A stretch of 36,633 nt of DNA from an uncultured Pelagibacteraceae bacterium (GTDB taxonomy: Bacteria; Pseudomonadota; Alphaproteobacteria; Pelagibacterales; Pelagibacteraceae): assembly GCA_902633515.1 (NCBI GenBank), contig CACPGB010000005.1, positions 1-36,633 on the forward strand, read 5' to 3'. Position 1 is the stretch's first letter. Every line of letters starts with the position of its first letter. The notes below the pieces were generated by a model. That model ran no database searches. It had not been told where the DNA came from and was given only the letters and a program-made list of their open reading frames with translations. Positions 23,642-27,855 of this stretch are shown piece by piece. The translations under genes were made by a program, and so were the position numbers.

Positions 23642-24577
23642 ATGAAAAAAATTTTTTTAATTTTTATCCTTAGCTTGAGTTTTACAAATTTTATATTTAT
23701 TAAAGTTTTAGCCAAGTCCTACAAAATTAATGATGTTATTGAAAATAGTTTTTCAGTAAGTAAAAATTTTGGAATAGATTTACCGAAGGGCGAATGGATT
23801 CTTGTAGAAAAATATTATCGTGATTACTATGATCTTAGATTTAAATCATACACATTAGCAAGATTAGAAAAAAATAGATTGGTTGAGTCAATAGAAATAG
23901 GAAGAGTACATACTGCTGCAGTATACGAGTGGGCTGTAAACTCGGCTTTACAAGAAATACTATTTAAAGATAAATATGATGGATGTTATGAAAGACCAGA
24001 ATATTCAATTTTAAGGTTTTATACTAAAGGAAATACTCATAATTGTTTCTGGGTAAGACATATTGATGTTTATTCAGAAATATTTACTCCCGAAGATCCA
24101 GATCAAAAAAATACTTCTAGAAAGGCACGTAGATGGATAAAAGAAAACCAGATTCAGTTACCAGAAATTATGTTATTGAGCGAACATTCCTACTTTTCTA
24201 GATTAAAAGCGGGATATTGGTATACTTTAACATATGGAATTGATCCTAAAATACTCGGTGCTCCTAAAAATAAGTTTAGGACTGAAAAAAGCTCAGAATA
24301 TCACAAATATAACATTGAAAATTATCCAAAGCACAAAAAAATTATGAATACGTGGGCATCTATTTCAGCAAAAAGACATAAAGATTTTGAAAAAATCATT
24401 AATATTATTGATAGACATAAACTAGAATTAGATGATCTGTTTTTAAACGAGAATATTGAAAATGAAAAAAATTCAAATGATATTTCAAGCCAGATACAAA
24501 AATTGTATGACTTATATAAAAATGGTATACTTTCAAAAGATGAATTTGACAAAGCAAAAAAGAAACTCTTAAACTAA
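23642..24577 (+). CDS. Exported hypothetical protein with C-terminal SHOCT domain
   Basis: A 311-residue protein with a signal peptide (about 1-25, ending near VLA). The middle shows no family that I recognise but is rich in Tyr, Trp and Arg. Cys pairs in DGCYERP and HNCFWVRH could form a disulfide. The last 30 residues (about 282-311) form a short SHOCT-type helical domain ending YKNGILSKDEFDKAKKKLL. SHOCT domains are usually C-terminal oligomerisation modules. It starts 3 bases after the M23 gene and may work in the same envelope process. Confidence 0.75.
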   Translation: MKKIFLIFILSLSFTNFIFIKVLAKSYKINDVIENSFSVSKNFGIDLPKGEWILVEKYYRDYYDLRFKSYTLARLEKNRLVESIEIGRVHTAAVYEWAVNSALQEILFKDKYDGCYERPEYSILRFYTKGNTHNCFWVRHIDVYSEIFTPEDPDQKNTSRKARRWIKENQIQLPEIMLLSEHSYFSRLKAGYWYTLTYGIDPKILGAPKNKFRTEKSSEYHKYNIENYPKHKKIMNTWASISAKRHKDFEKIINIIDRHKLELDDLFLNENIENEKNSNDISSQIQKLYDLYKNGILSKDEFDKAKKKLLN

Positions 24578-24580
24578 ATC

Positions 24581-24703
24581 ATGAAAACTTTAATACTATT
24601 AACTTTAGTAATTGTTATTGGTTGGGTATTATTTAGACCCATTACTCAAAAAGAGCTTGATAGATATAATAATAAAAAAAATAGACCAAATTTAGATTTG
24701 TAA
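24581..24703 (+). CDS. 40-aa single-span membrane peptide
   Basis: Not recognised. ATG 24581 is 3 bases after the SHOCT gene stop. The product begins MKTLILLTLVIVIGWVLF, one transmembrane segment, followed by a charged tail (RPITQKELDRYNNKKNRP) and NLDL. The layout is like that of the 39-aa peptide after lon: short N-terminal helix, then RP and a polar tail. Likely the last gene of the 19.9-24.7 kb operon. Function unknown. Confidence 0.55.
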   Translation: MKTLILLTLVIVIGWVLFRPITQKELDRYNNKKNRPNLDL

Positions 24704-24712
24704 TAAAATCAA

Positions 24713-24739
24713 TTGCATTACATTCGTTTTAATTATAGA
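24713..24739 (+). promoter_or_regulatory. Candidate promoter for the 63-aa gene
   Basis: TTGCAT (24713-24718) and TATAGA (24734-24739) are 15 bases apart on the plus strand, with a start expected near 24745. This would give an 80-nt leader before the ATG at 24825. Confidence 0.4.
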
Positions 24740-24744
24740 TTCTC

Positions 24745-24824
24745 ACTACCATATCTCATGGTGAAAAAGAGGCCGATATCGCATCGGTTAAAAGCGAGTT
24801 TTGGAAAACTAACAAGGAGAGTGT
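24745..24824 (+). promoter_or_regulatory. Hairpin-rich leader before the 63-aa gene
   Basis: Three consecutive inverted repeats can be read: ACCAT-ATCTC-ATGGT (about 24748-24762), CCGAT-ATCGC-ATCGG (24773-24787) and AGTTTT-GG-AAAACT (about 24797-24810). A clean AAGGAG ribosome binding site follows 7-8 bases before the ATG. The middle stem is GC-rich against an A+T background. It may be a structured regulatory leader; I cannot match it to a named riboswitch class. Confidence 0.4.
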
Positions 24825-25016
24825 ATGAAAAGAATGCACAGAATACTAAGTTTGTTTAGCCGAGGCTCAAAAAATGCAAGGCTAAATGAACTTATGTTTC
24901 GAAATGCAAAAACTGTAAATGCTAACGACAATGGCACAAGTGGTTATTTAGTAAAGTCAGGAAAAAATAGCGGAAAAATCCTGGGACATATAAGAAGTCG
25001 GTCTAAAGTTATTTAA
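24825..25016 (+). CDS. 63-aa basic hypothetical protein
   Basis: Not recognised. The product starts MKRMHRILSLFSRGSKNARL and is strongly basic (many Arg and Lys, few acidic residues). The C-terminal half, GYLVKSGKNSGKILGHIRSR, has a repeated SGK. There is no signal peptide or membrane segment. The ribosome binding site AAGGAG is one of the best in this window, and a hairpin-rich leader precedes it, so it is probably expressed. It stands alone on the plus strand at the left border of the GIY-YIG region. It could be RNA- or DNA-binding; that rests on charge only. Confidence 0.6.
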   Translation: MKRMHRILSLFSRGSKNARLNELMFRNAKTVNANDNGTSGYLVKSGKNSGKILGHIRSRSKVI

Positions 25017-25072
25017 GTTCATTGGGGTATGGGGTAACAACAAAATAGTACTTAAAAAAAAAGGAGTTATTA

Positions 25073-25132
25073 ATGAGTGGATTAGAAATATTAGCAGTAG
25101 TTGCTGTCGTATATTATTTTATGAACAATTAA
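25073..25132 (+). CDS. 19-aa membrane micro-ORF with strong ribosome binding site
   Basis: MSGLEILAVVAVVYYFMNN is a complete frame whose body is one hydrophobic helix. It is preceded by AAAGGAG 6-7 bases before the ATG, a near-perfect Shine-Dalgarno sequence that most genes here lack. It lies 56 bases after the 63-aa gene on the same strand and could share its transcript. Such a peptide could be a small membrane regulator or toxin-like peptide, or a leader. No family is recognised. Confidence 0.5.
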   Translation: MSGLEILAVVAVVYYFMNN

Positions 25133-25159
25133 AACCTACGGGGTCAGGGGCACCTGGCA

Positions 25160-25171
25160 ACAGAACGCCCC
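25160..25171 (-). repeat. GGGGCGTTCTGT element, copy 1
   Basis: Read on the minus strand, GGGGCGTTCTGT is continued by TG and, 8 bases on, GCCCC, so it can form a hairpin GGGGC...GCCCC (down to 25147). Exact 12-mer copies occur at 27170-27181 and 27828-27839 in the same orientation, all intergenic. A degenerate relative with GGGG pairs and AACAACA lies at about 25022-25042. Confidence 0.7.
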
Positions 25172-25215
25172 ATATTAAAGGATTCCGTTAACCTAACTAA
25201 TTTTTATAAAATAAA

Positions 25216-25248
25216 GTTCAATGAAGGTTCAATGAAGATTCAATGAAG
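25216..25248. repeat. Three tandem 11-bp repeats (TTCAATGAAG)
   Basis: Units at 25216-25226, 25227-25237 and 25238-25248 are GTTCAATGAAG, GTTCAATGAAG and ATTCAATGAAG. Each contains the dyad TTCA-A-TGAA, a shape typical of a protein-binding half-site pair. The same decamer recurs near 27101-27122 and, in variant form, in the leaders of both GIY-YIG genes. Confidence 0.8.
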
Positions 25249-25268
25249 TTTGAAAACAATTTCAAACT
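25247..25268. terminator. 9-bp stem hairpin at the 3' end of the first GIY-YIG gene
   Basis: AGTTTGAAA-ACAA-TTTCAAACT is a perfect 9-bp inverted repeat with a 4-base loop, overlapping the stop codon of the minus-strand gene. No long T-run follows in either direction, so the terminator role is tentative. Confidence 0.35.
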
Positions 25269-26370
25269 ATTTCACTATTTTTAAATGTCTTTTTTTTATT
25301 CTTTTTTTTGACTTTTTAATTTGCATTTCAATTGCTAACTCAATTTTTTTATCTTTGTTAACCTTCTTTAACTCATTCTCAATTTCTTTTTCCATTTTAT
25401 AAATTAATCTTTGTATTTCTGCTGGCGCCCTAATACTAAATCGGGTCACTATTTTTAGGAAAGTTTCTAGATATAATTTTCGATTTCCTCTTGGGATGGT
25501 AGAGGAAATTGCTTGTAATACATAATCAATATCATGTTTGCCTTGAAATTTATCAATTATCTTTTTTGTTAATTTAAATGATTTTACATCCAAATACTTT
25601 TGTTCAGGTCGTTCCCAATACGCACATCCAACTGGATCTTTTGGGTATTTCTTTATAAGAGATTTATATTTTTTTTCGAACATATTGAATATTTCAATAT
25701 TTACTGCGCTTTCTACATGCAAAATACTTTTTGCCTTAAATTTTTTTCTAATTTTGAAATTATCATCAAAAAATTTTTTGAACTCAGCACCAATATAACC
25801 ATATTGCTGACCATAAAATTTTTCTTTTAGGTGTTTTGTATATTTGTATCTATACTCTTTTAAATCAACTTTATTAATATCTAAGATTTTTGCTTCAATT
25901 GTAATGTTGCCATCTTTATCATGCTTGTCTCCTAAACGATTTATATCTGCTATAGGAATAAAACCTGCGAAATAACCAAATCTAGCATCTTTCAATGTTG
26001 TTTCTGAAAAACTAAAAGTTTCATAAGTATCAAGTTCTTTGTCTATATAATATTCAGATAAATAAAATTTGCTTAAAGACCAAAAATGATGAAGTTTATT
26101 AAATTTATGCTGAAACTTTAAAAAATGTTTATAAATAACATCAAAGTCTAATTTATAACACTCGCTTTTATCAACTCTATAATAGTCAAATTTGTTTTTG
26201 AAAGACCATTCGAGATCTTGATCTAATCCATCAATTTCAGAAAAAAATTTAATTTTTAAACTTGGATTTGATGTTTTATAGGTAGTTAACCTTTTTTTAA
26301 TTCGATCTAATGAGGATGCAACGCCAACTTTATAATAATTTTTAATTTTTGTTGTGCAGTAAAAAAACAT
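25267..26370 (-). CDS. GIY-YIG (T5orf172-type) domain protein with unknown C-terminal region
   Basis: The 367-residue product has an N-terminal GIY-YIG-superfamily module (about 1-65) of the T5orf172/MUG113 type. It shows a first strand with Y4, KVGVAS (14-19), arginines at 23 and 27, a catalytic-type E54 in DLEWSFKNKF, and a conserved-looking DKSECYKL end. The rest is lysine-rich and unknown, with a basic helical C-terminus (KKSKKRIKKRHLK) fit for DNA contact. Family members include homing-type nucleases, phage proteins and restriction-related proteins. Its upstream leader is nearly identical to that of the next GIY-YIG gene, pointing to common control. Nuclease activity is inferred from the motif only. 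Confidence 0.7.
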   Translation of the reverse strand: MFFYCTTKIKNYYKVGVASSLDRIKKRLTTYKTSNPSLKIKFFSEIDGLDQDLEWSFKNKFDYYRVDKSECYKLDFDVIYKHFLKFQHKFNKLHHFWSLSKFYLSEYYIDKELDTYETFSFSETTLKDARFGYFAGFIPIADINRLGDKHDKDGNITIEAKILDINKVDLKEYRYKYTKHLKEKFYGQQYGYIGAEFKKFFDDNFKIRKKFKAKSILHVESAVNIEIFNMFEKKYKSLIKKYPKDPVGCAYWERPEQKYLDVKSFKLTKKIIDKFQGKHDIDYVLQAISSTIPRGNRKLYLETFLKIVTRFSIRAPAEIQRLIYKMEKEIENELKKVNKDKKIELAIEMQIKKSKKRIKKRHLKIVK

Positions 26371-26375
26371 TCTTA

Positions 26376-26401
26376 AATTTTACCCTAACTCTTAATGAAG
26401 T
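26376..26401 (-). promoter_or_regulatory. Shared leader element, copy at first GIY-YIG gene
   Basis: This 26-base segment matches 27042-27067 at 23 positions; all three differences are C/T changes. On the minus strand it ends in TAAAAT (-10 like), 6 bases before the ATG, which suggests a leaderless transcript. It contains a variant (CTTAATGAAG on plus) of the TTCA-N-TGAA dyad. Confidence 0.6.
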
Positions 26402-26429
26402 TTAAAATTTATCGTATTTACCTTGTTCA

Positions 26430-27035
26430 TTACTCATATTCTCTTCGCAACTCTGACATTGTCTTTCCGTTATAACTCCACCAAATTGGTCCTTGAACTG
26501 CTGCCCAGTCATAACCCATATCTCTTAAAACAATATCTGCAGCATCTGATAATGATGTGATTTTATCTCTAAACTTTACTTTTGTATCATCATGAATTTC
26601 ACAAGTAATTGTCTTGTCTTTTACAAATTCTAAGATTGTACCTGGTTTTAAATTAATCATGTCAAAATTAAATTTTTTTCTAATTTTTCTAGCATTTTCT
26701 AGTGCCTGCTTATCTTGAGGTGTTTCAACAATATCATCAGCAGGAGTAACATTTTTACCTCCCATGACCTCTGCTATTTCTAAAATTGCTTTTGCTTGTT
26801 CGGGTGTTGAATTAAAAAATTCTCTGTTTTGTCTTATTCTTTTATCATCTAAACCCTCATGAATTTTTTTTTCAATAACCTTTGCGTCTTGAACTTCAAC
26901 TGCATAATAACACTCAAATGGAAGTGGTGTAGATGTGTTATCCAACTCCTTCATTCTTCTTTCAAGGTTATCTGTAATGCCAATTTTAATAGTATCAGGC
27001 ATCGATTGATTTGTTAAAATATAAACTATTTTCAT
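26430..27035 (-). CDS. GIY-YIG (T5orf172-type) protein with a RAMA/DUF4357-like C-terminal domain
   Basis: The 201-residue product has a clear T5orf172 module (1-85): VYILTNQ with Y5, IKIGITDN (16-23), R26/R27, E55 with H59 in VIEKKIHEGL, and NREFFN (70-75). Residues about 122-201 read LKPGTILEFV, then ITSLSDAADIVLRDMGY and WWSYNGKTMSELR. That pattern of a turn, an SLS-AA helix and a terminal W-x-G-x-L-LR resembles the RAMA or DUF4357 domains thought to read modified DNA in restriction systems. It could therefore be a modification-guided nuclease or a homing-type element. The domain call is by eye. The leader copy upstream matches its neighbour. Confidence 0.72.
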   Translation of the reverse strand: MKIVYILTNQSMPDTIKIGITDNLERRMKELDNTSTPLPFECYYAVEVQDAKVIEKKIHEGLDDKRIRQNREFFNSTPEQAKAILEIAEVMGGKNVTPADDIVETPQDKQALENARKIRKKFNFDMINLKPGTILEFVKDKTITCEIHDDTKVKFRDKITSLSDAADIVLRDMGYDWAAVQGPIWWSYNGKTMSELRREYE

Positions 27036-27041
27036 AAATGT

Positions 27042-27067
27042 AATTTTACCCCAATTCTCAATGAAGT
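27042..27067 (-). promoter_or_regulatory. Shared leader element, copy at second GIY-YIG gene
   Basis: Partner of 26376-26401 (23 of 26 identical). On the minus strand TAAAAT is 7 bases before the ATG at 27035, again suggesting leaderless transcription. The spacer region upstream of the -10 holds the CTCAATGAAG variant of the dyad (27057-27066). Confidence 0.6.
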
Positions 27068-27100
27068 CTAGAAACGGAGTTTTTGAAAAAAGGTCAAACT

Positions 27101-27122
27101 TTCAATGAAGTCTTCAATGAAG
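27101..27122. repeat. Two copies of TTCAATGAAG upstream of the second GIY-YIG gene
   Basis: Exact decamers at 27101-27110 and 27113-27122, 12 bases apart; the second is part of the full dyad CTTCA-A-TGAAG. They lie in the 237-base gap 27036-27272, which otherwise holds one leader element, one GGGGCGTTCTGT element, a weak hairpin near 27201-27216 and A-rich DNA, with no gene seen. Confidence 0.7.
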
Positions 27123-27169
27123 TATTTAAATAACCTAGGTATTTTGGTATGATTTGGTTCTCGGGGGAC

Positions 27170-27181
27170 ACAGAACGCCCC
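27170..27181 (-). repeat. GGGGCGTTCTGT element, copy 2
   Basis: Same 12-mer and orientation as copies 1 and 3. On the minus strand it continues GTCCCCC, allowing a GGGG/CCCC hairpin with the CGTTCTGTGT loop. It lies between the second GIY-YIG gene and the membrane protein gene. Confidence 0.7.
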
Positions 27182-27272
27182 TATAAAAAAAATAATCATT
27201 AAAACTCAATAGTTTTTTAATAATAAAAATAAAAAAAAATTATTTACTGACTATGTACGATGCCTTCAAGAC

Positions 27273-27695
27273 TCAAAATTTACTTTCTTTAAAATATTCT
27301 TTTATGTCTTTTTGAAATAAAAGGTAAATACAAGAAATCTGTAATAAAGTATTTAAAATTAAAATAGATCTTACTGCCAATTCATTAAATCCTATTTCTG
27401 GTATAGGTCCATAAGGAACAGCAAAACTTACATTTATTGCCCCAATTAAATCTAACAAACCAATCACATTCCAAGAAAGCAAAAGACCCCAAAGTATAGT
27501 GCTCGGTTTTTTTATAATGTGGTAAACTAAAAATAAAGCAGTTGTCCCAATAAAAAAGTCGCCCACAAAAGGAGCTATCCATTCGGACGATGCCGAACGC
27601 TCATTTTCAGTAAAGATCCAAAACAAAAACAAACCTGACCCAACTGCTCTGAATGACATCCATCCAGTTACAAAAATAATCCAATTTAATTTCAT
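27273..27695 (-). CDS. Hypothetical four-helix membrane protein
   Basis: Not recognised. The 140-residue product has hydrophobic segments at about 5-28, 42-60, 65-88 and 108-126, with a short charged cytoplasmic-type end KDIKEYFKESKF. A proline/glycine loop, VPYGPIPEIG, lies before the last helix. It is bracketed by GGGGCGTTCTGT copies 2 and 3, and a 9-base direct repeat ACTATGTAC occurs outside both ends (27250-27258 and 27771-27779). Composition is like its neighbours. No function proposed. Confidence 0.7.
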   Translation of the reverse strand: MKLNWIIFVTGWMSFRAVGSGLFLFWIFTENERSASSEWIAPFVGDFFIGTTALFLVYHIIKKPSTILWGLLLSWNVIGLLDLIGAINVSFAVPYGPIPEIGFNELAVRSILILNTLLQISCIYLLFQKDIKEYFKESKF

Positions 27696-27827
27696 TTAAG
27701 AATTATATATCAAAAAAAAATCTCAATTACAAAGTCGTCACAAAGAAATCATAGTTTAACCATGTACACTACTATGTACCTTTCGAGAAACCTATAATTT
27801 CTGATATAAACTCAATTGGGTGGAACA

Positions 27828-27839
27828 ACAGAACGCCCC
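27828..27839 (-). repeat. GGGGCGTTCTGT element, copy 3
   Basis: Same 12-mer and orientation, 16 bases beyond the xsc stop. On the minus strand it continues TGTTCCACCC, so the GGG/CCC hairpin is retained with a different 3' arm. It lies in the 160-base gap 27696-27855, where no gene is seen. Confidence 0.7.
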
Positions 27840-27855
27840 TTACTAAAATTTAATT

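Follow-up and report, generated by a model that had tools for sequence, protein, structure and literature searches.

We read P0001, a 201-residue GIY-YIG protein of a SAR11 (Pelagibacteraceae) genome, as a compact anti-phage restriction nuclease that is carried on a mobile cassette and whose RAMA-like C-terminal domain chooses the target, and we hold this reading with moderate confidence. Indirect support for the anti-phage role comes from the match of P0001 to the candidate defence family PDC-S57, carriage on mobile cassettes, restriction-modification (R-M) genes among the neighbours of homologs, and shuffling of the reader domain. In the mechanism that we propose, the GIY-YIG (T5orf172) domain would cut DNA by the usual metal-dependent GIY-YIG chemistry, and the RAMA-like domain would dock on modified or foreign DNA and pick the target by its sequence, through a modification mark or by the two combined, with protection against phage as the presumed outcome. 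P0001 and a second nuclease-like gene would ride a cassette bounded by copies of the ssrA 3' end, and the cassette would spread the gene pair between SAR11 strains. Features are listed below by their positions in the window, by which we mean the whole 36,633-nt stretch of DNA that was analysed.

Table. Positions of P0001, its domains, the second cassette gene, the boundary repeats and the surrounding insertion in the window.
Feature	Positions	Strand	Remarks
P0001, T5orf172-type GIY-YIG + RAMA-like protein, PADLOC PDC-S57 member	26430..27035	-	201 aa
GIY-YIG (T5orf172) nuclease domain of P0001, residues 1-92	26760..27035	-	Pfam, invariant residues, predicted fold
RAMA-like domain of P0001, residues ~122-201	26433..26672	-	Fold matches to MPND 7ydw and CcrM 6pbd; profile
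P0002, second cassette gene	25267..26370	-	367 aa; N-terminal ~90 aa like a divergent GIY-YIG/T5orf172 domain
Boundary repeat GGGGCGTTCTGT, 3' side of the cassette	25160..25171	-	
Boundary repeat GGGGCGTTCTGT, 5' side of the cassette	27170..27181	-	DNA identity with locus L002 begins here
Third boundary repeat GGGGCGTTCTGT	27828..27839	-	16 nt past the TPP-enzyme stop codon
3' end of permuted ssrA, 34-nt copy ACGGGGTCAGGGGCACCTGGCAACAGAACGCCCC	25138..25171	+	Rfam alpha_tmRNA, below cut-off
140-aa ORF of the neighbouring cassette (27181-27839)	27273..27695	-	
3.2-kb insertion relative to close relatives	24677..27855		Flanks contiguous in L186 and L209

The reading frame of P0001 runs from an ATG start at 27035 through 201 codons, and the plus strand across the same interval is interrupted by stops; the 201-aa ORF reported in the sequence-only reading was thus borne out, with the strand now assigned. 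Judging from Pfam matches and from full-length homologs elsewhere, the ORF is real and not a chance one. P0001 matched Pfam T5orf172 (PF10544) over residues 3-86 at 8.4e-20 (71.6 bits; cut-off: 20), and MUG113 (Pfam), a second GIY-YIG relative, matched the same residues at 1.9e-17. All of the residues named earlier were found (Y5, K17-I18-G19-I20-T21, R26/R27, E55 and R71-E72-F73-F74), and Y5, K17, G19, R27, L31, E55 and E72 are invariant across 29 full-length homologs. An AlphaFold2 model built with 29 homologs had a mean pLDDT of 87, and in a Foldseek search of the model against PDB the GIY-YIG half matched the Slx1 GIY-YIG nucleases. The GIY-YIG nuclease fold that had been proposed is upheld by the T5orf172 match, the predicted fold and the invariant active-site residues. 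A sequence search of PDB with P0001 returned chance matches only, and a search of NCBIfam returned nothing useful.

The motifs from which a RAMA/DUF4357-like reader had been proposed, a helix (TSLSDAA, residues 160-166) and the C-terminal end (GPIWWSYNGKTMSELRREYE), are both present. The core of this domain is modelled with pLDDT ~96 (AlphaFold2). When the whole model was searched against PDB with Foldseek, the matches were to the CcrM-DNA structure 6pbd (probability: 1.00; E-value: 0.004) and to the DNA-bound RAMA domain of MPND (7ydw_B; probability: 0.99; TM-score on the target: 0.59; 2.7 A over 78 columns), the latter with a weak E-value of 0.14. The C domain was then compared by hhalign with CcrM RAMA domains (CcrM C-terminal domains gathered with PF18755), which gave a probability of 86.5% (P 4.6e-6 for one comparison; 78 of 84 columns) against 0.2% for the P0001 N domain as control and 0.2-0.5% over the span of controls. 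A Pfam search with residues 122-201 (E ≤ 10) gave no match, PF18755 included, and the PF18755 model found nothing in the source genome. Because fold and profile match RAMA but PF18755 does not recognise the domain, we call it RAMA-like, on predicted structure, and do not count it in PF18755, whose curated score it does not reach. The structure check against RAMA (PF18755) that the sequence-only reading had put forward therefore succeeded on the fold and fell below the curated score; of the two names it offered, RAMA stands by predicted fold and profile, but DUF4357 was rejected, with no Pfam match even at E ≤ 10. A winged-helix reader, as in type IV wH-GIY-YIG enzymes, was likewise rejected, as the domain is predicted to fold as RAMA instead. 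With the nuclease and the RAMA-like domain both matched, the architecture first proposed therefore holds. A preference of the MPND RAMA domain for m6A could not be confirmed (PMC11037411).

P0001 matched PDC-S57, a phage-defence candidate of PADLOC-DB (models PDLC05041/05043), along its whole length (6.7e-72; residues 2-200 against 6-206 of 212) and has the two-part layout in common with it; the SAR11 copies differ in being paired with a second nuclease-like gene, often in ssrA-site cassettes. We know of no functional test of this candidate family. The C-terminal part of PD-Lambda-1, which we take to be the DUF4041 protein of PMC9519451, has a T5orf172 domain in common with P0001 (1.9e-8), but PD-Lambda-1 is a large protein with a central coiled-coil DUF4041 part and no RAMA-like domain shown; membership was rejected, as the 201-aa P0001 matches just positions 358-474 of 496, without the DUF4041 part. 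The domain combination of P0001 is that of the GIY-YIG-RAMA fusions mentioned in prokaryotes as possible m6A readers (PMC11037411, Front Microbiol 2024), although these were only mentioned, without characterisation and without a SAR11 or cassette context. Given this 2024 mention and the PDC-S57 match, P0001 is not a new kind of protein. The wH-GIY-YIG type IV enzymes Ahi29725I and Apa233I (PMC11037411) are works-like analogues in joining a GIY-YIG nuclease to a DNA-reading domain, but they read DNA through a winged helix whose dependence on Gm6ATC has been demonstrated, whereas the putative reader of P0001 is C-terminal and RAMA-like. The T5orf172 homing endonucleases of phage ICP1 (PMC10448857) belong to the same nuclease subfamily but bind DNA through Zn-finger/CapR-type repeats and are phage-borne, near essential phage genes.

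Full-length homologs of P0001 occur in other SAR11, in SAR116, in other Alphaproteobacteria and in one Flavobacteriales MAG, and a 100% identical protein is present in the single-cell genome AG-365-G16. PDC-S57 was found in 22 of 385 alphaproteobacterial genomes, some of these by single-domain matches, and P0001-like genes in 12 of 201 SAR11 genomes (full-length in 8). A phage-borne origin of the gene was rejected: matches among phages and plasmids cover mostly the nuclease domain alone, no phage record covers at least 80% of P0001, and full-length relatives among mobile-element records are limited to 5 plasmid records and a single IMG/VR contig. Most members of the family are chromosomal.

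Between P0001 and its homolog at locus L010, identity is 95% over the N domain and 47% over the C domain; for the homolog at L017 the corresponding values are 65% and 70%, and the C domains of L010 and L008 are 86% identical to each other. In AU tests the tree of either domain is rejected by the alignment of the other (p 1.8e-4 and about 1e-71); the second value is not to be taken literally because the N-domain tree has many near-zero branches. These comparisons add to the sequence-only reading that, as far as alignments tell, the nuclease domain is nearly constant in the SAR11 homologs and the RAMA-like domain swapped or diverged. Such a pattern fits a constant cutting domain joined to an exchanged or fast-changing recognition domain, and is what would be expected if selection changes recognition.

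Also new is the finding that copies of GGGGCGTTCTGT bound a cassette with the P0001/P0002 pair inside. The window has three exact copies, each on the minus strand (25160, 27170 and 27828), and 5 matches were found with up to 2 mismatches against 0.39 expected. The permuted ssrA gene has GGGGCGTTCTGT as its 3' end, and the Rfam alpha_tmRNA match ends there in L006 and L011; at 25138-25171 the remainder of ssrA is absent. L002, the locus with which the window shares DNA from the 27181 repeat onward, lies downstream of thrC. The neighbouring cassette with the 140-aa ORF is 92% identical in DNA to positions 8195-8795 of L127, which belong to an array beside ssrA in a different SAR11 genome, where the cassette ends at the same ssrA-end repeat. 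In L186 and L209, whose TPP enzyme is 95-97% identical to that of the window, the M23 peptidase gene, a short spacer and the TPP-enzyme gene follow in a row and represent the empty site. Because the flanks are contiguous in these two relatives, the interval listed in the table is an insertion that replaced about 24 bp. Signs of mobility are a near-identical gene in unrelated contexts, the repeats and the empty site.

Iterated CTTCATTGA motifs lie near both cassette ends (25210-25260 and 27040-27120, minus strand) and were seen also in L006, L007 and L011; a recombinase or regulator may bind them. Compared with L186 and L209, the SHOCT-domain gene at 23649-24570, just past the M23 peptidase gene, forms an insertion of its own.

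The first 90 aa of P0002 retain the active-site residues Y4, K14, G16, R27, E54 and E70 and are weakly T5orf172-like (Pfam E-value: 0.03; hhalign P: 0.003, with a probability of just 10%). P0002 takes the place that a PD-(D/E)XK-like partner has in other SAR11, where most loci carry a ~170-aa protein that falls into two diverged types and has D...(Q/R)VK motifs. A low-confidence model of this partner (pLDDT 59) matched I-Ssp6803I and PvuII. I-Ssp6803I is a PD-(D/E)XK homing endonuclease, and the predicted match to it tentatively places the partner among PD-(D/E)XK-like proteins. The window DNA in common with L002 ends 13 nt past P0001 and that in common with L011 restarts 7 nt past the P0002 stop; because the one identity ends before P0002 and the other restarts after it, the second gene has been exchanged. 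The second gene of the pair is thus interchangeable by this DNA comparison, a point that goes beyond the earlier reading. No P0002 was found in viral contigs.

The pattern GGGGCGTTCTGTT was found in 167 of 201 SAR11 genomes and in 29 of the 29 that are at least 90% complete, with a single match in the table for the reversed pattern. Many genomes have 2 to 6 copies, often on one strand and within a few kb, which adjoin ssrA or lie at thrC/rnhA and other spots; in several near-complete genomes the one copy is the bare ssrA end. Tandem arrays of small GGGGCGTTCTGTT-bounded cassettes were seen in L121, L122, L127, L129, L130, L135 and others. Among the array cargo are Type I R-M, AlwI, methyltransferases, PDC-S57, PDC-S11 and numerous small unknown proteins, and another small GIY-YIG-like protein is cargo of the ssrA-side array of L135 (6990-7496). 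The remark of the sequence-only reading that such genomes usually lack these systems agrees with the report that SAR11 is usually without R-M (PMC9516812), but several of the SAR11 genomes examined carry R-M in such cassettes.

A repeat lies within 3 kb at 8 of the 18 SAR11 GIY-YIG-RAMA loci (chance ~3e-12, a rough value that assumes independence and uniform density), and at the other 10 there is none within this distance, some of them near groEL. In L003, L004 and L005 the gene pair was found near groEL without an ssrA-type repeat, which suggests the groEL region as a second insertion hotspot. No integrase or recombinase was found in cis beside the arrays. Each of the 13 SAR11 genomes checked encodes one ~325-aa Xer-type tyrosine recombinase, and few encode another; a small serine recombinase is encoded directly upstream of the homolog in L010 (7311-7973). 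Pelagimyophage contigs (L142-L145, L148, L149, L151 and L154) carry their own permuted ssrA with the tag ADENLALAA. This ssrA shares its 3'-terminal sequence with the SAR11 cassette repeat, and the viral contigs with the repeat comprise pelagimyophages with their own ssrA and GC-rich chance matches; inspection by eye recognised no integrase on them. A literature search of incomplete coverage returned no description of ssrA cassettes in SAR11.

We offer only tentatively, and with more doubt than conviction, the generalisation that the SAR11 defence-gene pool consists of small cassettes, mostly without an integrase, that build up as tandem arrays at the permuted ssrA 3' end and a few other spots (thrC/rnhA, the TPP-enzyme gene) and would be moved by the single core Xer or a trans-acting recombinase, possibly aided by pelagimyophages, with the GIY-YIG-RAMA gene and its interchangeable second nucleases as one type. 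The main reading itself has P0001, through its ssrA-end cassette, come and go with a pool of defence and accessory genes that SAR11 strains would share.

The homologs in L002, L006 and L010 adjoin DNA methyltransferases, an AlwI-type endonuclease and helicase-nucleases. Across 16 alphaproteobacterial loci outside SAR11, neighbours matched 93 PADLOC models (E ≤ 1e-25), whereas a control set of the same size (82 proteins) matched 7; this excess is no more than suggestive, because it comes mostly from few loci, namely two Type I R-M loci and two methyltransferases. In the window genome no defence gene was found beside P0001, except possibly P0002. A 1120-1122-aa helicase/RNase H-like/Cas4-like protein (L002 9131-12499, L006 9190-12558 and L010 10069-13431) recurs with DNA methyltransferases near the GIY-YIG-RAMA gene and is a possible defence component.

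The main rival, by virtue of nuclease family, partner fold and mobility, is a selfish nuclease of the homing type: P0001 and its partner would cut cassette-free alleles and be copied in by recombination, with any anti-phage effect secondary. T5orf172 proteins are often homing endonucleases (PMC10448857), the low-confidence model of the usual SAR11 partner resembles the fold of such an enzyme, and the genes lie in precise repeat-bounded cassettes at the end of a conserved RNA gene. However, most cassettes with the same boundary repeat have no detected GIY-YIG gene, so the repeat is independent of the nuclease; cassettes that have this boundary in common carry widely different recognition domains; more than half of the SAR11 copies are without a nearby repeat; and the family is mostly chromosomal with methyltransferase neighbours. 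We therefore regard homing as unlikely. Improbable, too, is a methylation-blocked nuclease that cuts unmodified phage DNA at GANTC-like sites and spares host DNA carrying the CcrM mark: the nearest solved fold of the RAMA-like domain is indeed the CcrM C-terminal domain, but the domain is too variable in SAR11 for one fixed site, and the RAMA of CcrM works together with its methyltransferase domain. A nuclease for DNA repair, recombination or plasmid exclusion, as likeness to the branched-DNA nuclease Slx1 might indicate, has a similarly small chance of being right, since patchy distribution, cassette carriage and C-domain shuffling misfit a housekeeping role.

Read as an anti-phage restriction nuclease, P0001 is an exchangeable enzyme that travels on small cassettes and has a defined address in the chromosome; this would explain in concrete terms how phage resistance can vary in a minimal genome, and cassette carriage would help to explain how SAR11 keeps virus defences swappable in so small a genome. 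Reading between copies of the ssrA 3'-end repeat is a simple way to find more such genes. The homologs also form a natural series, one nuclease domain joined to many RAMA-like domains, that is suited to testing whether RAMA domains read modified DNA.
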